Of a stretch of DNA of 64,000 nucleotides, positions 21,254 through 51,726 are shown piece by piece. Numbering within the stretch: the first letter of the stretch is position 1; every line of letters begins with the position of its first letter. This DNA is from Chloroherpetonaceae bacterium (lineage in GTDB: Bacteria > Bacteroidota > Chlorobiia > Chlorobiales > Thermochlorobacteraceae): the NCBI GenBank assembly GCA_025056565.1, contig JANWWA010000002.1, forward strand, positions 62,001 through 126,000, in the 5' to 3' direction. Below the pieces are notes generated by a model. That model was given only the letters and a program-made list of their open reading frames with translations, did not search any database and was not told the DNA's origin. The position numbers and the translations under genes are program-made.

Positions 21254-22661
21254 GGGACTTGCGTTGTGAAAATAGGCGTTCAATGATAAACAAAATCACG
21301 GCGAAAATCCAGATAGGAAGTGTTAGGGACTGGCGTGCGGTGTGGGGGGGCGTTAGGAATGGAACACGGTGCAGGCTATCGTGCTGCGGCAGGCATTGCA
21401 AGTGCGTAATGCGGCGCAAATCGTTTTCAGCGGTGATGGAAGCAGGTTCTTCCAAAAGCGACATCAGCCACTCAGGGAAAGCTGGGCTAAGCACAAAGTC
21501 GCTCCACTCGGGTGAAAAGCGGCTATGAAACGCATATTGCTGGTTTGGGCCAACCTTGCTTGCTTCAAGAATCGGCTCACCAAAGTCATCATACCAGAGT
21601 GCAAGGTTCGAGGGCGAAGCAGGCGTACGACGCCAAAGCGCAATGCGCTCCCCTGTGGAGGTTAGAAAACTCTGTTGCACTGCTTTGCCTTGCGTGCGTG
21701 CATCAAAGAAAATTTTTGTCTTGCCGCGTAGCGATGAAAACAGTGAGTCTGGGACGGGGGCGCTCGAGAGCCAAAAAATCAGTGATGCGGTGCTGAGCAG
21801 TGGCAAGGAACGTGTGCGCACAACTTTCACCGTGCGTTTTAATCCCTCACTGGCTGCTTTGATGGCTAACTCGAGATATTCAGCATCGCGCTGGCGAGAG
21901 TCCTCATAAAGGATTGCCACAACTTGTGGCGCCATGGGGGGCATCACAGTGGTGTGACGCATCGTTGCGGCTGCAGCACTTTGCAGCGCTGCTTGAAAGC
22001 GTGTGTAATGTGGGGTGCTCTCTCCTGTAATGACCCATACGCTATCATGTCCAATGAGTCGTGCCGATTGAACCCAAGTCTTTTGCTCACTTAGCGTGAA
22101 GGTGTGCCACTGCACCCTTCGGCGTAAAGTAGGTCTGGTGCCGTAAAACTGCAGCAGTCTGTCGCTAGTAAGTATCCAGAGTGATGATGAGAGCGGCAGT
22201 GCAGCATCTGCCTCTTGCAGAAGCGACCAGATGGATTCACTGGCTAAGGCAACGCTATCGTACTCTTTGAAGGGTGGAAAATCAGCAGCAAGCCAACGAA
22301 GTTCTACGCCTGATGCTCGAAGCGAATCCAAAAGTAGAAAAAAAGTCTTGTCGGTTGTGTGGTAATATAGTTCAGGGCTAATGAGTGCCCAGCTCTGGCT
22401 GCGCTTCGCATGGCTGGATGGATACCAGACAGGGTCAGCCATCAACAGCACCAACGCACTAAGCAGCAGAAGTCGCAGCGTTAGTAGAAGCCACTCGCTG
22501 GGTTGCCAGCGCCGAGAGGTAATTGATTCAGTCTCTCTTAGAAACTTAATTGAGCCAATCTTGACAATCGGGGCAGTGCGACTGCGAAGCAGATGAATAA
22601 TCAGGGGTATGGTAAGCGTAGCAAGACCAAACAGTGCCCACGGCGAGAGCAATTCCATCAT
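21243..22661 (-). CDS. BatA-type membrane protein (aerotolerance regulator N-terminal domain)
   Basis: 472 residues. The N-terminus LLSPWALFGLATLTIPLIIHLL followed by paired-helix residues to about 80 is the BatA N-terminal domain, which ends with a second membrane helix (about 56-75). A single hydrophobic helix near the C-terminus (about 445-462) closes the protein. The central region lacks the MIDAS DxSxS motif of a von Willebrand A domain, so this is not a complete BatA/BatB. It starts with an ATGATG that overlaps the DUF58 stop by 4 bases. Known relatives are linked to oxidative or envelope stress; the exact role here is not known. Confidence 0.8.
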   Translation of the reverse strand: MMELLSPWALFGLATLTIPLIIHLLRSRTAPIVKIGSIKFLRETESITSRRWQPSEWLLLTLRLLLLSALVLLMADPVWYPSSHAKRSQSWALISPELYYHTTDKTFFLLLDSLRASGVELRWLAADFPPFKEYDSVALASESIWSLLQEADAALPLSSSLWILTSDRLLQFYGTRPTLRRRVQWHTFTLSEQKTWVQSARLIGHDSVWVITGESTPHYTRFQAALQSAAAATMRHTTVMPPMAPQVVAILYEDSRQRDAEYLELAIKAASEGLKRTVKVVRTRSLPLLSTASLIFWLSSAPVPDSLFSSLRGKTKIFFDARTQGKAVQQSFLTSTGERIALWRRTPASPSNLALWYDDFGEPILEASKVGPNQQYAFHSRFSPEWSDFVLSPAFPEWLMSLLEEPASITAENDLRRITHLQCLPQHDSLHRVPFLTPPHTARQSLTLPIWIFAVILFIIERLFSQRKSHVI

Positions 22662-23551
22662 AGTTTTTTGCGTGCGTTGAGAAAAGCCTGTAGCGCTCTA
22701 TCCAGTGGCTCTTGAATCAGAAAGCGATGGTAAAAGATGCGATGCTCCAAAAACTTTTCTCGCAGTGAGGATAGATGCGCTGTGAATGCAGCTTGATAGG
22801 CTTGGCGTATGGCTTCGGTTTGCACAGGCACGCGTTCACCTGTCTCCAAGTCTTCAAAAATAGCGGCTGCAGGTTGCAAGAGTGTAAGCTCATTAGCGCC
22901 AAGTAGATGGCAGAGCAAGACTTCGTTGCGCTGACCTGCTAATTTACGCAGAGCTGTTTGCAGCTCTTCGGTGTGTTCATGTAAATCACTAATGAAAACA
23001 ATTAGCTCACGATGGCGCAAGGGACGGAGCACGGTCTCGAGCGTATGCCACTCGCCCCATTTACTTTGTGCAGTCAATGATTCCAGCGTGTGCAAGATTC
23101 GGTGCAAATGTTGTGGATGGTGGCGTGGTTCAATGCATACTTGCTGCTGTGAGTTCAAGGCGGTTAGAGCAATTGCATCACCTTGATGATGTGAAAGGTA
23201 GGCTAGTGATGCCACAAGGAAGCGTGCGTAGTCAAACTTGGAAAGCCCATTTTCTGTATGGTTCATTGAGGCACTGCTATCGAGCATAAAGCGAATGGTA
23301 ATGCTGGTCTCAACTTCGGACTCACGCACGAAGAACTTATCGGAGCGCGCATACACTTTCCAGTCCACTTGCCGAAGGTCATCACCCGGCTGATAGCTGC
23401 GATACTGACTGAATTCCAAGCCAATGCCAGAGTGCGGGCTGTGATGCAAGCCTAACATAAAGCCGTCGACGACGGTTTTGGCAACAAGCTCCAAGCGTGC
23501 AATTGCAGCCAGCGCACGCGGGTCAATAAAGCGATAAGTGTGAACAGACAT
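22658..23551 (-). CDS. DUF58 domain-containing protein
   Basis: 297 residues. The DUF58 signature is evident: GLHHSPHSGIGLEFSQYRSY followed by PGDDLRQVDWKVYARSDK, then the vWA-like FMLDSSASMN and later ELIVFISDLHEH. The residues LDSSAS provide a DxSxS metal-ion-dependent adhesion site. The family nearly always works with a MoxR AAA+ ATPase encoded just upstream; here the gene upstream is a divergent glycosyltransferase and no MoxR is visible in the window. It is the first gene of a minus-strand operon continuing to about 14.4 kb. Confidence 0.92.
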   Translation of the reverse strand: MSVHTYRFIDPRALAAIARLELVAKTVVDGFMLGLHHSPHSGIGLEFSQYRSYQPGDDLRQVDWKVYARSDKFFVRESEVETSITIRFMLDSSASMNHTENGLSKFDYARFLVASLAYLSHHQGDAIALTALNSQQQVCIEPRHHPQHLHRILHTLESLTAQSKWGEWHTLETVLRPLRHRELIVFISDLHEHTEELQTALRKLAGQRNEVLLCHLLGANELTLLQPAAAIFEDLETGERVPVQTEAIRQAYQAAFTAHLSSLREKFLEHRIFYHRFLIQEPLDRALQAFLNARKKL

Positions 23552-23656: not shown

Positions 23657-24721
23657 GTGAGCAAAAAACCGAACGGTCAGTGTATTGCTATGCTGGAGCA
23701 TTACCCGTCAGTTATCATCTTGCTGCTCAACTGGAATGGCTGGTGCGACACAATTGAATGCCTAGAGAGCGTATTTCGTTTGAACTACCCGAATTACAGG
23801 GTAATAGTGTGTGACAACGGTTCTACCGACGATTCGCCTGCTTACATCAAGGCGTGGGCGGAAGGGAGATATCACTTCACTGTGCCGCCTGAAAGTCCAC
23901 TGTCGGCTCTGCCCTGCACACCGATTGCTAAACCAATTGCATACCTTGAGCGTACTCTGGCACAGACAGGACCGTGCAGCAAACAAGATGAACCTGATGC
24001 AAAGCTCACGCTGATTCAGGTGGGCAAAAATCTTGGCTTTGCAGGCGGCAACAATGTAGGTTTAAGTTATGCACTATCGTATTGTCAATTTGATTACATC
24101 TGGCTGCTTAACAGCGACACAGTTGTTCTACCAGATACGCTTACACGGTTGATTGAGGCGGCAAGCAAAGACTGCAAAATTGGACTATGTGGCTCAACGG
24201 TGCTATACTACCACAACCCTTCGCGTATTCAAACGCTCGGCGGGGGACGATACCACAAGTGGTTTGGACTCACTTCACACATTGCTGAGGAGGAGTGCCT
24301 GACAGATATTCCTGCTGAAATGCGCTGTAGGCTTGCTGCCTCAATGGACTATGTGATGGGCGCCTCAATGCTGGTATCAAGAAATTTCTTGGAGACAGTT
24401 GGCTTAATGAGCGAAGAGTATTTCCTTTACTTCGAGGAATTGGATTGGGCTATGCGCGCCAAAGGGCGCTTTAGGTTGGGCTATGCCGTAGAGAGCATTG
24501 TCTATCACAAGAGTGGGCGAAGCGTAGGCAATACGCCAAAAGAGTGGAGTCCAACATCTGTGTTTCATACCACGCGCAGTCGGATTAAATTCGTGCGCAA
24601 GTTTTATCCAGCATTTTTGCCAATCGTGTATGTGCGACTTCTGCTCTCGCTATTCAATCAATGGCGAAAGGGACAGTGCGCACAAGCTCAAGCAATTTGG
24701 AAAGCAATGCGACACCAATGA
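23657..24721 (+). CDS. Glycosyltransferase family 2 (rhamnosyltransferase-like)
   Basis: GT-A fold transferase of 354 residues, expected at the cytoplasmic face of the inner membrane. Signatures are SVIILLLNWNGWCDTIECL, VIVCDNGSTDDS, NLGFAGGNNVGL, and the DxD-type metal motif within WLLNSDTVV. The late EEYFLYFEELDWAMR matches WbbL-like rhamnosyltransferases. The start is GTG 23657, or ATG 23690 if the shorter form is made. The last four bases overlap the next gene (ATGA). It heads a plus-strand operon of polysaccharide genes and is divergent from the DUF58 operon. Confidence 0.9.
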   Translation: MSKKPNGQCIAMLEHYPSVIILLLNWNGWCDTIECLESVFRLNYPNYRVIVCDNGSTDDSPAYIKAWAEGRYHFTVPPESPLSALPCTPIAKPIAYLERTLAQTGPCSKQDEPDAKLTLIQVGKNLGFAGGNNVGLSYALSYCQFDYIWLLNSDTVVLPDTLTRLIEAASKDCKIGLCGSTVLYYHNPSRIQTLGGGRYHKWFGLTSHIAEEECLTDIPAEMRCRLAASMDYVMGASMLVSRNFLETVGLMSEEYFLYFEELDWAMRAKGRFRLGYAVESIVYHKSGRSVGNTPKEWSPTSVFHTTRSRIKFVRKFYPAFLPIVYVRLLLSLFNQWRKGQCAQAQAIWKAMRHQ

Positions 24722-26100
24722 GAGATGTAATTTGTCGCACTGTGTTGCTGACAACCATTTTTACAATCCCTCTGCAGCAGCTACTCTATCTCTCAGTAGC
24801 AGGCATCACAGTAAAGACATACCAAGTGTTGCTGGCTGTGCTGGGCGTGCTATCGTTCTTTCAGGTGCGAGAAAGTCAGGCGCTATCTGAGTGGCAAAAA
24901 ATCGGTCTTGCATTCTTTCTCGTCAGCGTGAGCGCAGAACTTGCAGGCTACATTGAGCTGCGTAACTTTGGCAGCCTGCCAGAGCTGAAATACATTGGGT
25001 CGGTGGAGACACATCGCTTCACACTGAACCTGTATCTCTTACTGAATATGCTGTTTGCGTGGCAAGTTGTGCGCTTCATCACGGAAGTGCCAGAAGGCCT
25101 TAGGACAATCTTAACGACAGCTGCACTGGGGTCTCTATTACCATCTCTCTATGCGCTGTATCAACTGTTCAGTTTTGTATTTGGCTTTGAGATTGAAGCA
25201 CTGGAATTCGGAAGAATTATTGACCGTCCTGAAGCGCCACGCGGCATTTTCTTCGACAGTGGCACAGTGCGATTTGCTTCCACATACTTTGAGCCTGGTC
25301 CATTTGGGGGCTACCTGAGCATAATCATTCCGCTGACCGTGTTAGCTATCAAGCAGTGGCAGTCTGATGCCAAAGAACATTTAGCAATCAAATGGGTGCT
25401 CAAAGCAATCTTGCTACTGAATATTGTGGCACTGCTACTTTCTTTTTCTACATCTGCACTGGTGGGTATGATGCTCTTTGCACTGATTGTAACTGGGCTA
25501 ACCTATCCACTGGGCAAAGTTCTTAAAGGTGTGGCAACAGCGCTGTTGGCAGTAGCTGCTATGGTGACGCTACTCGGACAATGGGAGTTTGTCTTAAATA
25601 CAGTAGATGTCGCTTTTCTCCGAAAGCTGTTTGCCGAAGAGACAGATGTGTATGCTATATCTCGCATAGCAAGGATTCATCAAGCGGAAGTGGGTCTCAA
25701 AATTTTTCTTGACCATCCGATAGTCGGTATTGGACCCTTTGTGCCTTTCTTCTTCGAAGTCTATGAGCCTAGCACCGATGGAATGCCGCAAGCGGTGTCA
25801 ATCGTCTATGTAAATGTGCTAACGCAGACGGGTTTAGTCGGTGGTGCGCTATTCTTCTATGCAATTGGCAAGCTGATGATAAAATTGGTGCGCGCAGTGC
25901 GGCTATCAAATCGCATTGTAAAGGCAAATAGCGCTGTGCTCTTGGGGCTATTTGCCGCTGTGCTAACTTTATTTTTTACCTTAGGCTCGCTGGTAGCGGT
26001 GCATCTCTGGCTGGCAGTGGGTGTGATAGTAGGCTGGCTAATGTTGCACGATATAGCTTCATCTGCAACCTCGGAAGAAACCCTGACAGATGCCGAATAA
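24718..26100 (+). CDS. O-antigen ligase/polymerase-like membrane protein
   Basis: About 460 residues with 10 or more hydrophobic segments and a large loop at about 295-350, the layout of the Wzy/WaaL O-antigen ligase superfamily. The stretch around AEVGLKIFLDHPIVGIGPFVPFF resembles the conserved Wzy_C region (the HP..G.G motif). Ligases in this family join a lipid-linked polysaccharide to lipid A core or to protein. Which of these applies cannot be read from the sequence. I choose ATG 24718, which overlaps the GT2 stop as ATGA, instead of the in-frame ATG at 24661, which lies 61 bases inside that gene. Its 3' end overlaps the start of the C25 peptidase gene by 11 bases. Confidence 0.83.
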   Translation: MRDVICRTVLLTTIFTIPLQQLLYLSVAGITVKTYQVLLAVLGVLSFFQVRESQALSEWQKIGLAFFLVSVSAELAGYIELRNFGSLPELKYIGSVETHRFTLNLYLLLNMLFAWQVVRFITEVPEGLRTILTTAALGSLLPSLYALYQLFSFVFGFEIEALEFGRIIDRPEAPRGIFFDSGTVRFASTYFEPGPFGGYLSIIIPLTVLAIKQWQSDAKEHLAIKWVLKAILLLNIVALLLSFSTSALVGMMLFALIVTGLTYPLGKVLKGVATALLAVAAMVTLLGQWEFVLNTVDVAFLRKLFAEETDVYAISRIARIHQAEVGLKIFLDHPIVGIGPFVPFFFEVYEPSTDGMPQAVSIVYVNVLTQTGLVGGALFFYAIGKLMIKLVRAVRLSNRIVKANSAVLLGLFAAVLTLFFTLGSLVAVHLWLAVGVIVGWLMLHDIASSATSEETLTDAE

Positions 26101-29100
26101 GGCTGCTCAATGGCTGCTCCTGCTGAACCTTGTGATGGCCCTGAGCGCAGAAGCGCAGCCAAATCAACTTTCAGGAAAAACATATGTGCCCTCGTATCAC
26201 CTGCGTTTGGTGAATGAGAAGGTGGGCGGTAGAGAATTTGTGCGTGCAGAACTCAGTGAAAGTAGCATTGCAGAAGAGACGCTCAAGGCTGATGAAACAG
26301 GAGTGCTTGCACCGTTTGTGCCTGTGAAGGTGCTCTACATTGGTGTGCCGCTCGGTGCAGCGTTGTCTATTTCTGCAAAAAGCCTTGCAGGTGAAACAAA
26401 GTCAGAGGTTCTACTGTCGCCATTTCTTGGAGAAGCGGCAAGGTATGCAGAAAAAGACCTTGCGGCGAAACTGCGTCAAAGTCCGCTATACCAATCGGCG
26501 GAAGTGTTCCCTACTTCGCTTGCCAGAGTGGTGCGATATTTTTTTGTTGGCTCACAATATGTGGCGGAAGTGCAAGTAGCGCCTTTGCAATATGCTGCAG
26601 CGCGCAGAGAACTGCGCTGGCATCGCCTGATTGAACTAAGTTGGTCATTTGTGCCTGCAGCAAACCGTCAATGGTCTAACCCGACATGTGCTCATAGCGA
26701 CCTTGATGAAGAGTTTCTGCGTCGAAACCTTGTGAATTACAAGGATGCCAAAGCCTTTCGCGCCCCGCCTTCTGTAACCAGCCAAGTAGGAAGCGCATTT
26801 AGCGATAGCACAGGGGCTTGGTATAACCCCTCGCAGCCATATCTCAAATTGCTGACCACTGAAGATGGACTCTACCGCATTTCGGGTGCCGAAATTGCTG
26901 CTGCAGGGGTTAGTCTCTCTGGCATTGACCCGCGCACCTTACGGCTAATTTACAAAGGCAAAGAGATGCCGATTCTGGTGCGCGGTGAAGACGACGGGCG
27001 ATTTGACCCAACTGACGAAATCGAGTTTCTCGGCTCCTTCAACCGTGGCAATCCTGAACCACTGCTGGACGAATTTACAGGGAATGTGGTGGGCACAGTT
27101 ACCGAGCTAAGAAACGCTTACAGCGATACCAGTGTCTATTGGCTGACTTGGGGTAGCGAGCGGGGACGGCGCGTACAGACTGCCTCAGCCACACCGCGTG
27201 GCACAGCGCTGGCACAAAGTTTTTTAGCGACATACTACATTGAGCAAGATTGTGTCTATGTTACGGCACTCACAGAACAAGGGCAATACATCACTGAGCG
27301 GGTTCTGGGCGAAGGGTGGGCGCAGCGACTCTTTCAAGTCAGCCCAGCCTTTCCTACTGATGCAGAGCAAGTTAGCTTCCAGCTCGAGGGCGCACTAAAC
27401 ACGGGCATTGCGCAAGCGCGACTTCGTTTTGCGCATACTACAAACGGCACGGCTGAATTTGAAGTGATTCTAAACGGCGCACCAATCGGCACAATTCCGC
27501 TTTCAGGTCGAGGGGCTGAGACTTACACGCTATCGTTTAACGCATTAGCTCTGCGAAACGGCACAAACCAGCTGCTGTATCGACTGCGGCGCACTGGTGC
27601 GCAAACGGCGGTAGCAATTGTGGCACTCGATTGGATTGAATTTTCCTACCTACGCAGTTTTGCCGTGCCTACACTAGAACGGCAATTCTTCTTCGCTACA
27701 GGTAACACAGGGCAAGATATTGAGCTGTCAGGTGTGGTTGAGGGTGATTTTGTGCTCTATGACCTGACGGATACAGTTAGGCTATCGGGGGCAGTCCGAA
27801 GTGGAGAGCGGTTGCGCATGAGCACAAGCGCAAATAAGCGATATCTGTTTGCAGAGCAGCGTAACATCTTTCGTCCAATTGTGCGTGTGCATCAGGCAAA
27901 GCTGCCACTTCGCAGTCCGAATCGCACAGCCGATTACATTATCATTACACACCCTTTGTTTCGAGCGCAGGCAAATCGCTTAGCAGCGTTTCGTGCTTCA
28001 CCGCAAGGCGGTGGATACCGCACCGAGGTAGTTGAGACCGAGCAGATTTATGACGAATTTGGTTTTGGACTTTATGACCCTATGGCGATACGGCAGTTTT
28101 TGAAGTATGCGTTTGAAAACTGGCGTGCGCCGCGACCGCGCTATGTGGTGCTCTTCGGCGGCGCAAACCGTGATGTCAAAAAGAAGTTGCGCGTCTCATC
28201 GGAGCGACCCGCACTTGTGCCAACTTTTGGGCAGCCAGTGAGCGACATCTGGTTCGTGAGTTTTAGCAACGACCCTGCACGACCGTTTCGCAACATTCCC
28301 CGAATGATGATTGGGCGTATCCCCGTCTACACCATCGCCGAAGCTGAAACGTACCTCAGCAAGCTGCTAAGCCACAATCAAACGGCTGCCAGAGCGGAGA
28401 GGTGGCACAAAAACTTTCTTTTCATCAATGGCGGATTCAATGTGCAAGAGCAGCAGCTATTTCGCTTCTACGCCAATAGCATTATTTCCACATTTGTAAC
28501 GCCGCCGCCCATTGCAGGCAGAGCCGATACGCTATATCGCGATGACCAAAATCCCTTCGTGAGTACGCAGCTTGAGGCGCAAATTCGCAGTGCAATGCAG
28601 CGTGGCAGCTCAGTGGTGCACTACATTGGGCATGCGGGCTCTAACACTTGGGATTTGGCGCTGGGCGACCCGCTGACGCTGCAAAATCGTGCGCGCTATC
28701 CGCTGGTGCTGAGTTGGACTTGCAATACGGGACGCTTCGCAGAGCCGTTTGGAAAGTCGTTTGCAGAAAAGTTTCTACTCTCGCCAGAGGGCGGCGCGCT
28801 ATGCTTTATCGGCACAGCTGGCTGGGGCTTTCCATCGCTCGACCACCTTCTCAGTCAAGGTGTCTTTCGTGCCATTTGCGATACGCTGCGCACTGCAGGC
28901 GAAATTTGGTTCTCCGCACATCGGGCGTTTCGTGAGCAGTTTGGCTTTTTTAGCGCAGCGCTGGAAGGCACAATTGACCACTACAACTTGCAAGGCGACC
29001 CTGCGGCTCCAATCCCGCTTGCCACTTTGCCCGACCTTGCACTGGAAGCTGGACAAGCAACCTTCCTGAATCAAACATTAGACGAAAGCCTTGCGCAGCC

Positions 29101-31627
29101 GCTGTCCATCGTGATTGAGAACTATGGACTGGCGACCCGTGAAGGCGTAAGTCTGCGCATTTATGACCGCTGGGCAGAAAACCCTGCGCCAGTGTTGATG
29201 CTTGATACCACGCTGCATCCGATTGGCTTACGCGATTCACTGGTGGTGCAACTTCGCTTTACAGGGCAGGTCGGTGTGCATGAACTTGAACTGGTCATCG
29301 ATGAGCCAAACCGCATTCCAGAGGTTACAAAAGCTAACAACCGCCTACTGCTGCGTGCAAATGTGAGTGCCAACACGGTGATCGGAACAAAGTTACCAGC
29401 CTTCGGGGTGCTCCGAGCCGAGAGGCCTGTTTTGACTGTGCTCAGTCGCAGTGAGCGTCCGAATGCGCCGCGCATCTATCAATTTGAACTCGATACCACC
29501 GACCGGTTCAATAGCCCGCTTTGCGTGCGAAGCGGTAATGTGCAAGAAGGGCAATACATCACTGAATGGCGACCCAGTGTTTTGCCATTGCCAAACACGC
29601 CCTACTTTTGGCGCGTGCGGGTGTTGGAGGGCAGCTCGGATGCGCCTTGGCAAGTGATGCCTGTCTCATTCTCCGATGACCCAGCACTGCAAACCACATG
29701 GCAACAATTTGGCACGCATCTTCTTCGCAATCGCTTGGAAGGATTGGTGTGGCAAACCAATGGTCTCACGAATGGCACAGGGCGTTTGCCGCTGATTGTG
29801 CGCTCAGTTGGATTGAATGCACAGCTTGCCAGTCTCTTCTATGAAATCATCGTGGGTGAGGATAGGCAGTTTGATATTATTTCCATTGGCGCACCTTCAC
29901 GCGGGCCGCTGCGTGGCTTAAATGTGGTGATTCTGGACACGGCACAAGGGGTGCGCGTCTCACGCGTGGAGAATTTTGACTTTCTTACAATGTTTCCCTA
30001 CACGCTGGTCAACTCGGATACCTCGCTGCCCGGACGCTTCACTCGCCTAATTGATGCAATGACGCCAAGCCAATTTGCGCTCATCAGCCTTGTTGATGCC
30101 GTGCCGGATACGCGCGACATTGGGATGAATCCGATTCGTCAGCGCTTGGAAGCATTAGGCAGTCAGCACTTCAGCCGCCTTCGCTTTCGGGAGTCATGGG
30201 CATTTATTGGCACAAAAAATCGAGGCTTTTATGCCGAAGCATGGGGCACACGCTGCGACCGCTCCCAGCAAATTGGCTGCGACGCCACACAGGAGGTAAC
30301 CACTATTGACACTGCCATCACCATTCAGCGTCTGCGTGCAGATTGGCTTACGGACCGAATTGGACCGGCTGCACGCTGGCAACGGCTGTCTTGGCAAAGC
30401 ACAGGTGAGACACAACAAACACGCTTTACCCTTATCGGCGTGCGCTTGGACGGACGAGAAGATTCCTTGCTAACCACCACGCAGCGCATAGGCATGGACC
30501 TCTCTCGCATTGATGCGCAAATGTATCCCTACCTTCGACTGCGTGCTACCTTGCAACGCAGTCCTGCAACGGGCGAAGCGCCGCTGCTTTCGGCTGTAAC
30601 ACTGGCTTACACCCAAGCAGGTGATGCGGCGCTATCGTATCAAACGGCACGGGTCGTGCGCGATTCTGTTGAAGCCGGTGAGCCAATTGAACTGATTGCT
30701 GAAGTGCGCAACTTGGGCGAGTCGACGCTGCGCAACATTCCAGTTCAGCTCACTCGATTGCTGCCAAGCGGCGCACGCCAAACGCTGCAAATGCTGCGCA
30801 TTGATTCACTCTTGCCAAATCAAGCGACGCTACTGCGTCTTAGTGCAAATACCGAGCCTCGTTTTGGCTGGCAAACCGTGGCGATTGAGCTTGACCCTAA
30901 CAATCAACTGGCAGAGCTTTCCAAGCAAAACAATCGGGTTACGCTTTCGGCATTTGTGCGGGCTGATACCATACGCCCCACTGCAACGATTGAGTTTGAT
31001 GGGCGCCGCATTTTTAATGGCGAGACCGTGCGCCAGCGTCCACGCATTGTAATTCGCGCAACCGATAACACACTTTCTCTTACAGACACAAACTCCATTC
31101 GGTTGTTTCTCAATCGTCGTCCGATTTTTTATGCACAGTCAAATGTGCTGACCTTTGTGCCTGCCACACTGGGCAACCCCACTGCGACCGTGGTCTTTAC
31201 GCCAACGCTGGCAGATGGCATCTACACGCTCTCTGTGGTCGTGCGTGACGCAGCAGGCAACACTGCTGATAGTGCCACAACGACAGTGCGCTTCGTCGTA
31301 GAAAGCAGCTTCAAGGTGGAGAACCTATTCAACTATCCAAATCCGTTCTCTGACAAAACGGAATTTGCGTTTCGGCTCACCAGCCCAGATGATGAGCGAC
31401 CAACGGAGTTCAAAATTTACATCTATACGATTGCAGGTCGCTTGGTGCAAGTGTTAGATGCAATGCCGGTCATTAGCGCAAGCTGGCAAGAATACTACCG
31501 CATTCCTTGGGACGGACGTGACCAAGATGGCGACCTATTAGCCAGCGGCGTCTATCTTTATCGCGTGGTGGTGCGCTCCCCAAAGGGAACAATTACGAAG
31601 ACAGAGCGACTGGCAATTGTGCGATAA
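26090..31627 (+). CDS. Giant C25 (gingipain-type) cysteine peptidase with T9SS C-terminal domain, PorU-like
   Basis: 1845 residues. A signal peptide ends near ALSAEAQP. A PorU-type beta-rich N-terminal region is followed by the C25 peptidase domain (about 620-960). The catalytic pair is visible as His848 in HYIGHAGSNTWDL and Cys878 in LSWTCNTGRF, 30 residues apart as in gingipains. Two CARDB-like repeats (about 980-1090 and 1515-1625), an Ig-like segment and a T9SS type A C-terminal domain (about 1745-1845, starting NYPNPFSDKTEF and ending VYLYRVVV...KTERLAIVR) follow. PorU is the T9SS sortase that cleaves cargo and attaches it to anionic LPS, and it keeps its own C-terminal domain. A secreted C25 protease that is not the sortase is the alternative. 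It sits inside a glycan operon. Confidence 0.85.
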   Translation: MPNKAAQWLLLLNLVMALSAEAQPNQLSGKTYVPSYHLRLVNEKVGGREFVRAELSESSIAEETLKADETGVLAPFVPVKVLYIGVPLGAALSISAKSLAGETKSEVLLSPFLGEAARYAEKDLAAKLRQSPLYQSAEVFPTSLARVVRYFFVGSQYVAEVQVAPLQYAAARRELRWHRLIELSWSFVPAANRQWSNPTCAHSDLDEEFLRRNLVNYKDAKAFRAPPSVTSQVGSAFSDSTGAWYNPSQPYLKLLTTEDGLYRISGAEIAAAGVSLSGIDPRTLRLIYKGKEMPILVRGEDDGRFDPTDEIEFLGSFNRGNPEPLLDEFTGNVVGTVTELRNAYSDTSVYWLTWGSERGRRVQTASATPRGTALAQSFLATYYIEQDCVYVTALTEQGQYITERVLGEGWAQRLFQVSPAFPTDAEQVSFQLEGALNTGIAQARLRFAHTTNGTAEFEVILNGAPIGTIPLSGRGAETYTLSFNALALRNGTNQLLYRLRRTGAQTAVAIVALDWIEFSYLRSFAVPTLERQFFFATGNTGQDIELSGVVEGDFVLYDLTDTVRLSGAVRSGERLRMSTSANKRYLFAEQRNIFRPIVRVHQAKLPLRSPNRTADYIIITHPLFRAQANRLAAFRASPQGGGYRTEVVETEQIYDEFGFGLYDPMAIRQFLKYAFENWRAPRPRYVVLFGGANRDVKKKLRVSSERPALVPTFGQPVSDIWFVSFSNDPARPFRNIPRMMIGRIPVYTIAEAETYLSKLLSHNQTAARAERWHKNFLFINGGFNVQEQQLFRFYANSIISTFVTPPPIAGRADTLYRDDQNPFVSTQLEAQIRSAMQRGSSVVHYIGHAGSNTWDLALGDPLTLQNRARYPLVLSWTCNTGRFAEPFGKSFAEKFLLSPEGGALCFIGTAGWGFPSLDHLLSQGVFRAICDTLRTAGEIWFSAHRAFREQFGFFSAALEGTIDHYNLQGDPAAPIPLATLPDLALEAGQATFLNQTLDESLAQPLSIVIENYGLATREGVSLRIYDRWAENPAPVLMLDTTLHPIGLRDSLVVQLRFTGQVGVHELELVIDEPNRIPEVTKANNRLLLRANVSANTVIGTKLPAFGVLRAERPVLTVLSRSERPNAPRIYQFELDTTDRFNSPLCVRSGNVQEGQYITEWRPSVLPLPNTPYFWRVRVLEGSSDAPWQVMPVSFSDDPALQTTWQQFGTHLLRNRLEGLVWQTNGLTNGTGRLPLIVRSVGLNAQLASLFYEIIVGEDRQFDIISIGAPSRGPLRGLNVVILDTAQGVRVSRVENFDFLTMFPYTLVNSDTSLPGRFTRLIDAMTPSQFALISLVDAVPDTRDIGMNPIRQRLEALGSQHFSRLRFRESWAFIGTKNRGFYAEAWGTRCDRSQQIGCDATQEVTTIDTAITIQRLRADWLTDRIGPAARWQRLSWQSTGETQQTRFTLIGVRLDGREDSLLTTTQRIGMDLSRIDAQMYPYLRLRATLQRSPATGEAPLLSAVTLAYTQAGDAALSYQTARVVRDSVEAGEPIELIAEVRNLGESTLRNIPVQLTRLLPSGARQTLQMLRIDSLLPNQATLLRLSANTEPRFGWQTVAIELDPNNQLAELSKQNNRVTLSAFVRADTIRPTATIEFDGRRIFNGETVRQRPRIVIRATDNTLSLTDTNSIRLFLNRRPIFYAQSNVLTFVPATLGNPTATVVFTPTLADGIYTLSVVVRDAAGNTADSATTTVRFVVESSFKVENLFNYPNPFSDKTEFAFRLTSPDDERPTEFKIYIYTIAGRLVQVLDAMPVISASWQEYYRIPWDGRDQDGDLLASGVYLYRVVVRSPKGTITKTERLAIVR

Positions 31628-31629
31628 CG

Positions 31630-32751
31630 ATGAAAGTCTTCTACCTTGCCCCGAAGCCCCATCCGCTCAATGGCATTTCACAATATGCCTCGCTACTGAT
31701 GTCGGCAATAAAGAAGTATGCGCCCCATATTGCCTTTCACCGCTTAGATGAGCAGGAGTTTATGCAGTGCTATGCCGACCTGCCAAAAGGCAGTGTGGTG
31801 ATGGCAGAAATGAGTGTCGGAGAAGGCAAAGTGTTCCAAGCACTTTGGCAGCAAAAGCGGCACCGACCTGACCTCAGGCGCGTGATTACAATTCACGACC
31901 CGCCACGCTTTGCAGTGGAAATGACCCCACTTTTAGAGCGAATGTCAGCTACAACACTGATGCGGGCACTGCGCCGAGCATTCCTCGACACGCTGGGCTG
32001 GGTCGTTGAGCGACAAGTGACTATGCCGCACGACATATTTCTCTGCCTAACACAGCTGGGCAAACAAGTACTGGAACAGAAGTTTAGGCAATATTTCCCC
32101 TTTGTGCCAAAAGTCTTCTATGTGCCGCATCTACTCTACCTTGACCCTCCCGAATGTGTGCCTGAGCCAGAGTCACTAGTCCCGACACTCGGCTATTTTG
32201 GCTACATCAATCCGCACAAAGGCTTGCATATCTTGATTGAAGCCGTGCGTCGCTTGAAGGCTGAAAGAAAATCTTGCCCGCAACTGATAATCTATGGTGA
32301 GCCTATTACACTCAAAGGTTGCCGCTATTATGCACGCTTGCGAGCACAAGTAGCAAAATATCGGCTCGAAGAAATCGTGCAGCTAAGGGGCTACTTACCA
32401 GAGCACCAGATTGCGGCATTCCTGCGCACAGTGGATGTGCTGGCTATGCCGTATTTGGATTTAGGATTCGTCTCAGCCAGCGGGGTACTACAATGGGCGC
32501 GTAGCGTCGGGGTGCCTGTGCTGGCAAGCCAAACCCCTGCACTAAGGGCACTCATTGCAGATGGCGTAGAAGGTAAGCTGATTCCAACCTACAACATCGC
32601 AAAATGGGCTGAAGCGATACATTCTGTCGCAACCGAGCGCAAGATGTGGTGGGCATTTCGCAGCGGCGTCGTGCATAGACGCACCGAAGCAGAGTGGAAA
32701 ACTGTCGCAATGAAGCTATCGGCTATTCTTCAAGAAATTCAGGGAGCTTAG
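31630..32751 (+). CDS. Glycosyltransferase family 4-type protein
   Basis: 373 residues with a GT-B layout. The N-terminal domain begins MKVFYLAPKPHPLNGISQYA, a donor/acceptor loop typical of GT4. The C-terminal domain has LGYFGYINPHKGLHILIEAV and the late FVSASGVLQWARSVGVPVLAS, a variant of the usual E(x7)E region in which no clear first Glu is seen. It starts 2 bp after the C25 peptidase stop. The sugar and acceptor are unknown; context points to surface polysaccharide assembly. Confidence 0.85.
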   Translation: MKVFYLAPKPHPLNGISQYASLLMSAIKKYAPHIAFHRLDEQEFMQCYADLPKGSVVMAEMSVGEGKVFQALWQQKRHRPDLRRVITIHDPPRFAVEMTPLLERMSATTLMRALRRAFLDTLGWVVERQVTMPHDIFLCLTQLGKQVLEQKFRQYFPFVPKVFYVPHLLYLDPPECVPEPESLVPTLGYFGYINPHKGLHILIEAVRRLKAERKSCPQLIIYGEPITLKGCRYYARLRAQVAKYRLEEIVQLRGYLPEHQIAAFLRTVDVLAMPYLDLGFVSASGVLQWARSVGVPVLASQTPALRALIADGVEGKLIPTYNIAKWAEAIHSVATERKMWWAFRSGVVHRRTEAEWKTVAMKLSAILQEIQGA

Positions 32752-32753
32752 CA

Positions 32754-33872
32754 ATGCATATTGCAATTGATGCGCTGCTGCTCAAAAATCAAAATGCAGG
32801 CACTGGTTTCTACACCCATCAATTGCTTGTGGCACTTTCTCGCCTGCCTTCCGCGCATTGCTTCAGCGTATTTGTTGATGCACGCTATCAAAAAGCAAGT
32901 GAGTTTGAGTCTGAGAAAATGAATGTGCGGAAAGTAAAGTTACGCGGCACAGCGCATCGGATTTTGTGGGAACAGCTTGTGCTACCAAAGGAGCTACAGC
33001 ACATCAAAGCCGATGTTGCGCTCTATCCTTTTTTCATCAAACCAGTGCAGAGCCATGTGCCATCAGTGGTAATTATTCACGATGCGCTGATTAAGATATA
33101 TCCAGAGCTAATTGAGCCAGTTCGGCGCTGGTATCTTAGTGCGATGATAGAGCGCTCTATTCGGCACGCTACGCGCATCATAACTGTATCGAAATATGCA
33201 AGAGCAGATATTGTAAAGCACTATGGCGTAGCGCAAGAACGGATTTCGGTCGTGCCTGCAGCGGCAGCGCCGCATTTTGAAACAAAGCTTTCAAGTGCTG
33301 AACAGAGAGCAATTCTGCAGAGCTATGCCGTGCTCTTCGAGCGATTTTTTTTATGCGTTGGCATTAGCCACAGGTATAAAAACTATTTGGAACTTTTGCG
33401 TGCATTCAAAGCTGCTTTGGAGAGAGAACCTTCATTGCGGCTTGTGATGGTCGGTAGCGACGGCAACGATGCAACGCGCATTCAGGCGTTTATTGAGCAA
33501 AACGCGCTGCAGGAAAAAGTCTTTCGTGCAAAGTATGTGGCATCGGAAGATTTGCGAGCCTTTTACACTGCTGCTGCAGCGCTGGTTGTAACCAGTCAGT
33601 ATGAATCCTTTTGTTTGCCAATTGTGGAAGCGATGCAATCAGGCTGCCCGGTGATTGTGGCAAATCGTGCAGCACTGCCTGAGACAGCTGGCAATGCAGG
33701 TTTAATGTATCGCACAGAGGAAGACCTTTCACAAGCTTTGCTGGAAGTTTGGCGCAACGATGCATTGCGAGCCTCTTTGGTGAAGAAGGGGTATGAACGC
33801 GCAAAGGCATACTCGTGGTCAGATTCTGCCAAAAAGACATTGGCAATACTTGAAGCAAGCGTGAGAGCATAG
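32754..33872 (+). CDS. Glycosyltransferase family 4 (mannosyltransferase-like)
   Basis: 372 residues, GT-B fold. Motifs are MHIAIDALLLKNQNAGTGFY at the start, RIITVSKYARADIVKHYGV in the first domain, FLCVGISHRYKNYLELLRAF at the start of the second, and the retaining-GT4 E(x7)E region in SQYESFCLPIVEAMQSGCPV. The ATG at 32754 is preceded by GGGAGC and follows the previous stop by 2 bp; the in-frame ATG at 32694 would overlap the preceding gene by 58 bases and is rejected. It is the last gene of the operon. Confidence 0.9.
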   Translation: MHIAIDALLLKNQNAGTGFYTHQLLVALSRLPSAHCFSVFVDARYQKASEFESEKMNVRKVKLRGTAHRILWEQLVLPKELQHIKADVALYPFFIKPVQSHVPSVVIIHDALIKIYPELIEPVRRWYLSAMIERSIRHATRIITVSKYARADIVKHYGVAQERISVVPAAAAPHFETKLSSAEQRAILQSYAVLFERFFLCVGISHRYKNYLELLRAFKAALEREPSLRLVMVGSDGNDATRIQAFIEQNALQEKVFRAKYVASEDLRAFYTAAAALVVTSQYESFCLPIVEAMQSGCPVIVANRAALPETAGNAGLMYRTEEDLSQALLEVWRNDALRASLVKKGYERAKAYSWSDSAKKTLAILEASVRA

Positions 33873-33947: not shown

Positions 33948-35612
33948 CTAAGTCTCTTCCAGTGATAAGCGTGGCGTGACGATGAGCACCTCTTCTCGAG
34001 AGACCACGACGCTACCGGGCGGAGCCCCTTTGGGCTTGCGAACATACTTTTTCTCCGTGCAAATAACGGGTGCAAGTTCACTGGTGCGGGCTGAGGAATA
34101 GTAGGCTGCAATCTCGGCGGCGCGCAAAAGTTCTTCTTTGCTTGGCTTGCGTGAGGCTTTAAGCACGCAGTGCGACCCTGAGACCCCACGCGCATGAAGC
34201 CAAATATCATTCGGGCGCGCATACTTGAAGGTAAGCACATCGTTGTTTTCTGCGTTTTTCCCAACCCAAAGTTCTGCGCTGTCGCTAATCTTAAAACGAC
34301 GAAACAGTTGCACCTGCTCTGCTTGTGCTGTCTGTAGAAGAGAAAATTTTTTAAGCCACTCCAAGTTTTTTTCTCGCCATGCTCTAAATGCTTTGGGCGT
34401 GGTGAGGCTCTTAAGCTCGGAAAGCAGCGCTTGCTGCACGCTAAGATGATGCTCAAACTCAGCCAGTCGCTTTTGGGTGGTGGCGATACTCTGTCGTGCA
34501 GATTTGGCGCGTGAAAAGTAACGCTCTGCATTTTCCAGCGCGGACTGAGCAGGATCGAGTGGGATTGTGACGCGCTCACCTGCTGCGAACACATCACTGA
34601 GTTCAATTTCTGTCAGACCTTTGGCAATCTGTTCACGGTGCAAAAGCAAGAGATGTCCAAACCGCTCATATTGCTCAGCACGATGGTGTGCTAAGTGTAT
34701 TTTCATTGCTTGAATTTGCTCAGTCGTCTTCTGAAGCAAGCGCTCCAGTGATTTTTGCAAGGAAAGTAACTCTTTGCCGAAATGCTCTTGCTGATGCATC
34801 CGTTGCGCATAAATGCGCAGGGCATCGCCTACTAACTCAAAGGTTTCCACTCGCTCAAAGGGGGTATGGGTGTGCGTAACGAGAGAGAACCAGATACGGT
34901 TTTCAGAAGAGTAAATTTTTGGCTCAGGTGAAAGCAGCTCATAGAAGAGATCTTGAAAAGCGTGGTAAAGTGCATCGGGTAAGAGCGCAGAGTGAGCTTG
35001 ACGTGCCCGAAAAAGCAGCTCTCGCGCCAAATACAAATCAAAGCCAATAAGCTGCTTGGTCAAAAATTTTTCTTGCTCTTTTTTGCTTTGTTGGAGCAAG
35101 AGTGAAGCGTTGATAGCTTGGAAGAATGCATCTTTGTCTACTGCAAGCCGTTCAAGTGAGCGCAAAATTGGTGTGCGGGCTTCTACTTGCAGAGGCTTTC
35201 CGATTTTCTCTGGCGCTTGCTTGAATGATTCCTGCACAAGTCCATCTTTGAGCAAAAAGAAGTTGGTATCAGCACTGAAAAGTTGAAAGGCAAACGAGAG
35301 ATTGTCTTCAAGCTCCAAGTATAGAATGCGGTCGCTGTCGGAAATCTTTACGGCTTGGATTTGCTTATCGTTGGCAGATGGCATAAGGCTGGCAGTGTTG
35401 CGCTTCTTGCGCTGAAAGTCCTCAGAGTAATAGAGTGGCAGATGTGGTGAATGAGCCGTCGCAACCAGCGACAAGCGCTCTTTGTTGCGACCGAAAACCA
35501 AAATGCGCAGCTCATTTTTTTCTTGTGAGAAAGACTCGAAGATGTAGCCGCCTTCGAGACGCGCTTTAAGTTCTAAGGCCAGCGCATAGAGCGTAAAGTA
35601 ACTTTTAGTCAT
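33948..35612 (-). CDS. rqcH: NFACT/RqcH-like protein (Rqc2 homolog, FbpA family)
   Basis: About 554 residues. The N-terminal NFACT-N region (KSYFTLYALALELKARLEGG) leads into a helical coiled-coil middle, and the NFACT-R domain at the C-terminus contains PNDIWLHARGVSGSHCVLK. RqcH binds stalled 50S-nascent-chain complexes and adds C-terminal alanine tails that mark proteins for degradation; family members were earlier called fibronectin-binding proteins. The ATG at 35612 is preferred over the TTG at 35630, which would overlap the divergent DUF547 gene. The 3' end faces the glycan operon. Confidence 0.9.
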   Translation of the reverse strand: MTKSYFTLYALALELKARLEGGYIFESFSQEKNELRILVFGRNKERLSLVATAHSPHLPLYYSEDFQRKKRNTASLMPSANDKQIQAVKISDSDRILYLELEDNLSFAFQLFSADTNFFLLKDGLVQESFKQAPEKIGKPLQVEARTPILRSLERLAVDKDAFFQAINASLLLQQSKKEQEKFLTKQLIGFDLYLARELLFRARQAHSALLPDALYHAFQDLFYELLSPEPKIYSSENRIWFSLVTHTHTPFERVETFELVGDALRIYAQRMHQQEHFGKELLSLQKSLERLLQKTTEQIQAMKIHLAHHRAEQYERFGHLLLLHREQIAKGLTEIELSDVFAAGERVTIPLDPAQSALENAERYFSRAKSARQSIATTQKRLAEFEHHLSVQQALLSELKSLTTPKAFRAWREKNLEWLKKFSLLQTAQAEQVQLFRRFKISDSAELWVGKNAENNDVLTFKYARPNDIWLHARGVSGSHCVLKASRKPSKEELLRAAEIAAYYSSARTSELAPVICTEKKYVRKPKGAPPGSVVVSREEVLIVTPRLSLEET

Positions 35613-35624
35613 TATGTCTAACCG

Positions 35625-36404
35625 ATGCAAATTGTAAAGACCTATCTTGTAAGTTTATCTGTAATGTTTCACCTATCACCGATTGCGTTGGCGCAAATGA
35701 AACAAGCGTTTGACCACAGCAAGTTTGACGCAGTGCTGAAAAAATATGTGCAGGATGGAAAAGTAAATTATGCAGGACTGAAGCAAGAGCCACTGCTTGA
35801 TGCATATCTCAAAGACTTAGAGCAAGCTGACCCAGAGGCGCTACCGACAAAGGAAGAAAAAATCGCATTTTGGATTAATGCTTATAATGCCTACACACTC
35901 AAACTTGTCGTAGACCACTACCCGATAAAGAGCATCACCGACCTAAGCGCTTTGGGCTACCTCACGCTCCCAATTGATAGCCCTTGGAAGCGCAAGTTTT
36001 GCAAAGTTGGTGGTAGAGTGTATTCACTGGATGAGATTGAACACGACATTTTGCGTGCCAAGTTTGGCGAAGAGAAAATTCATTTTGCGGTAAATTGTGC
36101 CTCAGTGTCGTGCCCTATCCTAAGAAGCGAAGCCTACACGGGTGAAAGATTGGCGCAACAGCTAAGAGAACAGGCAGAAAACTTTTTGCGCGATGGTGTG
36201 CGCAATGCATTCCGATTAGAAGAAAATACGCTATACCTTTCCAGAATTTTTGATTGGTATCGCTCAGATTTTGAGAAGAAAAAGTCATCGCTTCTTCTGT
36301 ATCTTGCGCCATATTTTTCCGATGAAGAACGCCGACGGCTGGAGTCAGGCAACATCACCATTAAATTTCTAGACTACAATTGGGAACTCAATGAGCAAAA
36401 ATAA
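35625..36404 (+). CDS. DUF547 domain-containing secreted protein
   Basis: 259 residues. A signal peptide is likely (about 1-24, ending near SPIALAQ). The mature part carries DUF547 signatures: KVNYAGLKQEPLLDAYLKDL, KIAFWINAYNAYTLKLVVDHY, and the Cys-containing HFAVNCASVSCPILRSEAY. The family has a transglutaminase/peptidase-like fold but no settled enzymatic role. The gene is divergent from rqcH with about 12 bp between start codons and is followed after 9 bp by a dCMP deaminase gene. Confidence 0.88.
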   Translation: MQIVKTYLVSLSVMFHLSPIALAQMKQAFDHSKFDAVLKKYVQDGKVNYAGLKQEPLLDAYLKDLEQADPEALPTKEEKIAFWINAYNAYTLKLVVDHYPIKSITDLSALGYLTLPIDSPWKRKFCKVGGRVYSLDEIEHDILRAKFGEEKIHFAVNCASVSCPILRSEAYTGERLAQQLREQAENFLRDGVRNAFRLEENTLYLSRIFDWYRSDFEKKKSSLLLYLAPYFSDEERRRLESGNITIKFLDYNWELNEQK

Positions 36405-50613: not shown

Positions 50614-51726
50614 TTAGCGGCGCTGAGCATGGTTATCTGGTTCCTCCTTCTCAGAGGGAGCTGGCGCTGGTTCCTCAGAGGCCCCCGTTTCTTCAGGCGG
50701 AGGCACATAGCCTTTGCGGCGGAAAATTTCTTGGTCTAACTCTAACTGCAAAGAGATTCGATGTGAATTGCCAAGCTGGTCTGTGCCATCGAAGCGAGCA
50801 AAGCTGTAATCAATGTTCAGCTTGGCAATGCGTAACCCTGCACCTAAGGTTAAGCGACCAATGTCATCTATGCCTGCGCGAATTGCGACAATGTTTTTGT
50901 ACGCATATTCTAAACCACCTCGGAAGTTGAAGCTAACAGTACCTAACGAAAGATGCGCCGCATGTTTGCGTCCCTCAAAGCGGGTGTCAATGTCAATTCC
51001 CACCGTGAAGCGGCCAAAGAGTGCTTCCAGCGTGTAACCCCCGCCTAATTTTGCAGTAGGAGCAATTAGCTCATTGCGTCCAGTTGTCCAAGAGACAAAA
51101 GTAGTTGTGATGTCTTGCACGGCAATGCCAACGGTAAAACAGCTCCCAAGCTCATACAGCACGCCTGCATCAACACCAACGCCAAATGCATTCGCAAAAG
51201 TGCCAACATTGCGAAAAATAAACTTGGCACTTAGACCGTAAGAGAGCTTGTAAGGCGTCTTTACTGAATACGATGCCAGAACAGCCCAATCAGCTGCTCC
51301 AAAACGCGTGATAAGATTTTCTGCGTTATCTATTGGACGATTGCGTGCTTCGTCCCAAGCGCTGCGCGTGTCGGGAATATCAGAGACGCCCAAGCGCATC
51401 ACGCTTAGCCCGAGACTTTTATTCTCTTCAAATGGAATGGCAGCTGCAGCGTAGTTATAGTTCACCACATTGCCAAAGCTTTGCGAGTGCATCAAGGCAA
51501 TTTGTGGATAATTAATGTGCGAAAGCCCAGCAGGATTCCAGTAGCCAGCAGTTACATCTTGTGCTAACGCAGTGGCTGTGCCGCCCATTGCAAGGGCTCT
51601 GGCGCCAACCCCGAATGCCAGAAATTCACCTGCATATTTGCCCAAAACGACCTGTGCCTGCCCAGAGGGAAGCCAAAAGACAAATAATCCAAGTAGTAGT
51701 AAAATGATACGCCACTGCGCTAACAT
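50614..51726 (-). CDS. porV: PorV/PorQ family outer membrane beta-barrel protein (T9SS)
   Basis: 370 residues, UPF0164/PorV type. A signal peptide ends at SGQAQ. The conserved mature N-terminus is AGEFLAFGVGARALAMGGTA followed by DVTAGYWNPAGLS, the hallmark of this family. FadL-like beta strands follow, and the C-terminus is a Pro/Glu-rich tail (about 335-370). In T9SS organisms PorV shuttles cargo from the Sov translocon to the PorU sortase. PorQ-like and non-secretion relatives exist, so the exact subtype is uncertain. The start is a clear ATG. It heads the longest minus-strand run in the window. Confidence 0.82.
   Translation of the reverse strand: MLAQWRIILLLLGLFVFWLPSGQAQVVLGKYAGEFLAFGVGARALAMGGTATALAQDVTAGYWNPAGLSHINYPQIALMHSQSFGNVVNYNYAAAAIPFEENKSLGLSVMRLGVSDIPDTRSAWDEARNRPIDNAENLITRFGAADWAVLASYSVKTPYKLSYGLSAKFIFRNVGTFANAFGVGVDAGVLYELGSCFTVGIAVQDITTTFVSWTTGRNELIAPTAKLGGGYTLEALFGRFTVGIDIDTRFEGRKHAAHLSLGTVSFNFRGGLEYAYKNIVAIRAGIDDIGRLTLGAGLRIAKLNIDYSFARFDGTDQLGNSHRISLQLELDQEIFRRKGYVPPPEETGASEEPAPAPSEKEEPDNHAQRR

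Follow-up and report, generated by a model that had tools for sequence, protein, structure and literature searches.

A putative PorU2 sortase encoded among glycan genes in a Chloroherpetonaceae bacterium, and a possible second route of protein anchoring in type IX secretion

In Porphyromonas gingivalis, cargo of the type IX secretion system (T9SS) is cleaved and amide-linked to the sugar that ends an O-polysaccharide, which glycosyltransferases (GTs) build on undecaprenyl pyrophosphate, Wzy polymerises and WaaL ligates (PMC13086638). PorU (PG0026) acts on cargo bearing the T9SS C-terminal domain (CTD) and joins it to lipopolysaccharide through a linking sugar (PMC4560394, PMC13086638). Outside Porphyromonas and its close relatives, the anchoring of T9SS cargo is largely an open matter. 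Here we describe a gene for PorU2, a C25 cysteine peptidase and putative T9SS sortase, which lies inside a five-gene glycan unit of a Chloroherpetonaceae bacterium (GCA_025056565.1; genome of 2.9 Mb, here G000). The window, namely the whole stretch of 64,000 nucleotides analysed, is G000:C2:62001-126000, and positions without a contig or locus label are counted within it; labels beginning with G, C, L and f are our own for genomes, contigs, loci and families.

The name PorU2 and its NCBIfam model, in which the protein is called a putative sortase, are already known, and our literature search returned no account of PorU2, of PorU2 or PorU in glycan operons, or of a fusion with the ILEI domain. 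The closest conceptual precedent is exosortase of the exosortase/PEP-CTERM system, a sorting enzyme whose gene also lies inside exopolysaccharide loci and which, from genomics, was proposed to connect surface proteins with exopolysaccharide biology (PMC1569441). The enzymes themselves are different, since exosortase spans the inner membrane several times and has no relation to C25 whereas PorU2 is a secreted multidomain C25 protein, and no EpsH-type exosortase domain is found among the Pfam and NCBIfam matches of PorU2.

The five-gene unit and the identity of its C25 enzyme

The unit occupies 23657-33872 on the + strand and encodes in order a GT2, a Wzy_C protein, a C25 peptidase of 1845 aa and two GT4s, with Pfam matches to PF00535, PF04932, PF01364 (245 bits), PF00534 and PF00534. 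Gene calls were mechanical, and the junctions are -4, -11, +2 and +2 bp with the ATG starts at 24718 and 32754 chosen as best fitting. A divergent DUF58 gene (22658-23551, - strand) and a convergent NFACT gene (33948-35630, - strand) border the unit, which is thus isolated. The initial annotation had placed a sortase-like C25 gene within a glycan operon with these spacings, and the open reading frames (ORFs) and Pfam agree with it. From the spacing, the five genes may well be co-transcribed; a promoter and terminator scan of the region gave no more matches than were obtained in shuffled sequences.

The C25 protein (26090..31627, +), whose gene overlaps that of Wzy_C by 11 bp, passes the cut-off of NF052324 ("putative T9SS sortase PorU2") with 464.5 against 450 bits, the match spanning residues 241-1084 and model positions 22-879 of 879, and stays under that of the PorU model NF033707 with 336 against 420 bits. 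Among solved structures, P. gingivalis PorU (6za2, E=5e-21) is closest to it in sequence, with an alignment that reaches the C-terminal domain too. Like PG0026, it has the C25 His/Cys dyad, a propeptide-like N-terminus, a candidate CTD of its own and predicted export by the T9SS; unlike PG0026, it falls short of the PorU model, lacks the residue Arg722, carries an added ILEI domain and is located in a glycan operon. The description as a PorU-like sortase is therefore kept as to the sortase-like C25 family and changed as to the enzyme, which is PorU2 and not PorU. In addition, the genome does hold another and shorter PorU, a possibility that had been raised at the outset: a canonical one of about 1376 aa at G000:C10:20374-23763, scoring 975 bits with NF033707. 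The window gene as the only or canonical PorU of this genome is ruled out by it.

Altogether three C25 genes are present in the genome, namely PorU2, canonical PorU and a SecA-linked type. In a tree of 121 C25 domains, built by a quick method with support by SH-aLRT only, PorU2 (87 rows) is split with a value of 97 from the other C25 domains (34 rows), which comprise canonical PorU, the SecA-linked type and a further long C25 group, and the window protein groups with its family relatives. Canonical PorU is also present in 40 of the 46 PorU2 genomes searched, the remaining six all belonging to family f34. The f34 loci L119, L120, L123, L143 and L145 have PorU2-like genes and no canonical PorU over the cut-off, and PorU2 may be the sole sortase-like enzyme in these genomes. 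Among the Chlorobiales genomes examined, most of those not belonging to Chlorobiaceae have the third C25 type, its gene preceded by one of SecA size (identified as SecA by Pfam in L045) and followed by one of the PorV family, and the protein scores well under the cut-offs of both NF033707 and NF052324. In this genome it is split by two contig ends (L044 8660-10459, G000:C5; L052 7413-9818, G000:C21).

Glycosyltransferase genes around PorU2

To survey the neighbourhood of PorU2, a first set of 80 loci was taken out of 393 genomes of the phylum, with two controls, namely 20 loci of canonical PorU in those genomes and the genes downstream of PorU2. A second set of 79 loci, 70 of them non-duplicate, came from a separate named collection, representing the best-matching 80 rather than a random draw, and covers Ignavibacteria, Melioribacter, Stygiobacter, KSB1, Caldithrix and others. 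First-set neighbours (45 loci) supplied the profiles for GT4, GT2 and GT26, whose identity Pfam confirmed; the 45-locus statistics hence use hidden Markov models trained on that same set, and the 70 second-set loci lie outside the training.

Within five genes of PorU2, GTs account for 150 of 244 upstream neighbours and 6 of 252 downstream neighbours in the 70 second-set loci, and for 109/209 and 11/216, respectively, in the first "mid" set, compared with 3/115 upstream and 0/95 downstream at canonical PorU loci. At least two GTs within five genes occur at 33 of 45 PorU2 loci and at none of 23 canonical PorU loci (Fisher p=1e-9), 20 of the latter 23 having no GT nearby, and when PorU2 and canonical PorU are compared in the same genome, discordant pairs stand at 15:0 (p=6e-5). 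The association of PorU2 with glycan clusters is far above chance and is conserved across Thermochlorobacteriaceae (4 of 6 loci), Ignavibacteria and KSB1. The initial annotation had held that a separate PorU together with an unconserved glycan neighbourhood would count against its idea; the separate PorU exists, whereas the gene neighbourhood in related genomes shows a glycan linkage conserved over large phylogenetic distances.

Close relatives show how the unit varies. In G002, of the same genus, the order is GT2-Wzy-PorU2-GT4-GT4 with an additional GT4 and a Wzx-type gene upstream, and in other genera we found GT9-Wzy-PorU2-methyltransferase-GT4 (G003) and Wzy_C-PorU2-GT4 (G005). The GT2 of the window (23657..24721, +; PF00535 71 bits, PF13641), rhamnosyltransferase-like with TIGR01556 under cut-off, falls in one cluster with the GT2s adjoining PorU2 in relatives. 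The Wzy_C membrane protein (24718..26100, +; PF04932 47 bits, cut-off 31.7) could be an O-antigen polymerase or ligase, two functions indistinguishable here; its ORF opens at 24661, and the ATG at 24718, overlapping GT2 by 4 bp, is the most plausible start. The genome encodes one further Wzy_C protein, and homologues of the one in the unit occur in the family only adjoining PorU2, in G002 and G005, with none in G001, a genome that also has neither PorU2 nor a close GT4 orthologue. The first GT4 (31630..32751, +; PF00534 66.5 bits), which follows PorU2 after 2 bp, has a 69% identical orthologue in the same place in G002 and counterparts of 38-42% identity in G004, G006 and G007. The second GT4 (32754..33872, +; PF00534 93 bits) ends the unit after another gap of 2 bp; its ORF opens at GTG 32694, and ATG 32754 is the most plausible start.

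One may ask whether glycan clusters are simply hot spots that received PorU2 without any shared function. The GT content differs between clusters, and in three genomes of the same family (G004, G006 and G007, the contig of G006 being only 6.3 kb) no GT adjoins PorU2, as would be expected from such incidental co-location. We disfavour this explanation and consider it very improbable in view of the tight gene overlaps, the strong one-sidedness of the GTs, the same-genome controls and the co-occurrence of a glycan-fold domain, ILEI, in the enzyme.

Beyond the family of the window, the gene directly upstream of PorU2 is most commonly a GT26 of the WecG/TagA type (40 of 67 loci). A complete example is L238 on an Ignavibacteriota chromosome, which reads Wzx-Glf-GT2-GT2-GT2-GT4-GT26-PorU2-barrel-like protein. 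The cultured Stygiobacter electus has the order GT2-GT4-GT26-PorU2 (L215). In some loci a GT4-GT26 pair is on the opposite strand yet still adjoins PorU2, which implies that the linkage of PorU2 with GTs need not equal a single transcript. A conserved gene for an outer-membrane-barrel-like protein of about 450 aa comes after PorU2 in many loci, including those of Ignavibacteria. This arrangement, with PorU2 placed between or after GTs and ahead of a conserved barrel-like gene, could also mean that PorU2 serves the glycan pathway itself, in quality control or assembly, for example by processing an outer-membrane exporter such as the barrel-like protein, and that canonical PorU does the cargo sorting. 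The gene of about 450 aa, however, has no Pfam match and no counterpart in the window unit, and no C25 enzyme is known to process glycan exporters; we regard this explanation as improbable.

Domains and active site of PorU2

Along its length, PorU2 has a Sec signal peptide read by eye from the sequence (residues 1-23, MPNKAAQWLLLLNLVMALSAEAQ; 26090..26158), a C25 propeptide (residues 75-219; 26312..26746; PF08126 34.5 bits, cut-off 22), the C25 catalytic domain (residues 616-973; 27935..29008; PF01364) with His848 at 28631-28633 and Cys878 at 28721-28723, an ILEI domain as candidate glycan-recognition module (residues 1275-1377; 29912..30220; PF15711 39.4 bits, cut-off 27), a CARDB Ig-like domain (residues 1524-1618; 30659..30943; PF07705 34 bits, cut-off 22.7) and a T9SS CTD (residues 1749-1845; 31334..31624), all on the + strand. 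The match of the CTD to TIGR04183 is marginal (23.4 bits in a six-frame search and 19.6 in hmmscan, cut-off 23), and the region aligns with the CTD of PorU in 6za2. SprA (1348 bits) and 38 CTDs over the cut-off in the genome indicate a working T9SS.

The ILEI domain follows the glycan-linked form of the enzyme. It is present in 7 of 7 PorU2 proteins of the window family, in 40 of 44 of the mid set and in 77 of 77 of the new set, compared with 4 of 27 in the PorU2 clade paired with PorV2, 0 of 23 canonical PorU and 0 of 8 SecA-linked C25 proteins, and the only copy in this genome is that of PorU2. A profile of 45 PorU2 ILEI regions matched FAM3B (5e-23), the POMGNT1 stem (1e-19) and TMEM2 (3e-15) in PDB. 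Foldseek with an AlphaFold (AF2) model of the domain, of pLDDT 78, gave matches to FAM3/POMGNT1 with E down to 8e-7, and at E<=0.001 it returned proteins of the same FAM3/POMGNT1/TMEM2 fold and no others. These are eukaryotic proteins, while in the window the ILEI domain forms part of a bacterial C25 protein. The stem of animal POMGNT1 binds beta-linked GlcNAc via Arg129, Asp179 and Arg207, and FAM3C and FAM3A are sugar binders as well (PMC9802357). By motif correspondence with FAM3C and POMGNT1, the window protein would have these three residues at R1275, D1336 and R1367, which are conserved in 22/45, 34/45 and 37/45 PorU2 sequences, respectively. Both the predicted fold and these residues suggest that the ILEI domain of PorU2 may bind sugar.

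Apart from the window, PorU2 of the KSB1 type has two ILEI domains that flank the C25 catalytic domain, one on each side (L197 5768-11527; also L201, L206, L207, L209, L218, L241, L243, L252 and L194).

The catalytic residues His848 and Cys878 are found without exception in the C25 homologues aligned. Arg722, conserved in PorU and not in gingipains, was proposed to serve a sortase-like mechanism (Gorasia et al., PMC4560394). In our alignment it corresponds to column 911, which is Arg in 23 of 23 canonical PorU proteins and Gly in the window protein. Common to the glycan-linked PorU2s is a motif that follows the Cys and reads approximately C-[SH]-T-x-[KR]-F-A-E-P. As judged from these residues, PorU2 is an active-looking C25 enzyme to which the transpeptidase character of PorU is not transferable, and the statement of the initial annotation that this is the enzyme that would attach cargo is not established, as PorU2 lacks the Arg that distinguishes PorU.

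It is this Arg, missing from all PorU2 aligned, that makes the main rival explanation a serious one, namely that PorU2 is a glycan-docked surface protease: ILEI would tether it to the glycan of the operon, and the C25 domain would mature, shed or degrade proteins of the surface layer with no protein-glycan bond being made. C25 enzymes are otherwise proteinases, and ILEI together with the operon linkage would suit docking equally with transfer. Against it, PorU2 still resembles PorU in its N-terminal region, its length and its candidate CTD, the curators of NCBIfam class it as a putative sortase and, more speculatively, the K/R882 near the Cys in the glycan clade (92%) could substitute for the Arg. 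We consider the docked protease less likely than not, and the most credible of the alternatives discussed here.

A possible second anchoring route

The proposal we favour is that PorU2 serves a second T9SS route in which it recognises the glycan of its operon and processes a subset of cargo, most likely joining it to that glycan, and we give this an even chance of being right. By analogy, since the operon appears to encode the same kinds of glycan steps as in P. gingivalis, a second anchoring route would be the simplest reading. In terms of steps, GT2, both GT4s and Wzy_C, from their families, would help to assemble or ligate a surface glycan borne on undecaprenyl, with the remaining steps of the pathway presumably encoded elsewhere in the genome. 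PorU2, from its domains, would cross the inner membrane through Sec and be exported further by the T9SS by means of its own CTD. At the surface its ILEI domain would recognise the glycan, the His848/Cys878 dyad would act on the C-terminal signal of some T9SS cargo and cleave it, and PorU2 would most likely transfer the cleaved cargo to the glycan, alongside the general PorU, whose gene lies elsewhere. What we observe directly are the gene order and its conservation, the domain content, the catalytic residues and the separate PorU; co-transcription, the type of glycan, sugar binding, the cargo or substrate, the product and a covalent bond between proteins and the glycan of the operon are the parts of this scheme that we infer.

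In its most specific form the proposal can be put only tentatively, at somewhat less than even credence: a lectin domain of FAM3/POMGNT1 type would read the polysaccharide of the operon, and an active site unlike that of PorU, with no Arg722 and a basic residue near the Cys, would join a subset of cargo to it, in a form of glycan-dedicated anchoring common to Chlorobiales, Ignavibacteria and KSB1, with each lineage rebuilding the glycan part of the operon.

Several observations weigh against such a route. No PorU2 group aligned has Arg among the residues listed for the column of Arg722, these being mostly Gly or Ser, so that PorU2 could hydrolyse and not transfer. The three relatives with GT-free PorU2 loci belong here as well. 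Furthermore, in a sister clade of PorU2 (the "hi" set) the enzyme mostly goes with PorV2, and GT genes in its neighbourhood are very rare; this branch, with the highest NF052324 scores, is mostly without ILEI, whereas the branch of the window is glycan-linked and ILEI-bearing. With regard to the PorU2/PorV2 pair (NF052324, NF052325), the window protein passes the PorU2 cut-off, and a PorV2-like outer-membrane shuttle candidate is also encoded in the window (50614..51726, - strand), scoring 242.9 with NF052325 (under the cut-off of 325) and 134 with NF033709 (over the cut-off of 90). Its gene is 19 kb off on the opposite strand, and it is a possible partner of PorU2. Finally, we found no cargo that is particular to PorU2, no analysis of CTD subclasses having been made.

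The recurrent pairing of PorU2 with glycan operons suggests a dedicated means of anchoring secreted cargo to one specific glycan of the surface. Across a wide bacterial span, cultured Ignavibacteria included, a sortase paralogue is encoded together with its likely glycan and with a domain that is a candidate for reading it, which makes the assignment of glycan, cargo and enzyme directly testable and parallels the exosortase loci with an unrelated enzyme. If the second route is true, it would also give a bacterial context to the enigmatic ILEI/FAM3 fold.

Some minor features of the loci were also recorded. A DUF58 gene, with BatA or MoxR, is found not far from the PorU2 cluster in the window (21243-23551) as well as in L238 (23315-24951), in different orientations; as a synteny shared between the window and Ignavibacteria, DUF58/MoxR was seen in only about a dozen Ignavibacteria loci and is not relied on. 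PorU2 genes are duplicated in tandem at L129, L136, L236 and L242, with ILEI in both copies. At L142 (4963-7650) and also L133, a YCF48/BNR protein with a T9SS CTD adjoins PorU2 downstream with zero gap, and is a candidate for a dedicated PorU2 cargo.

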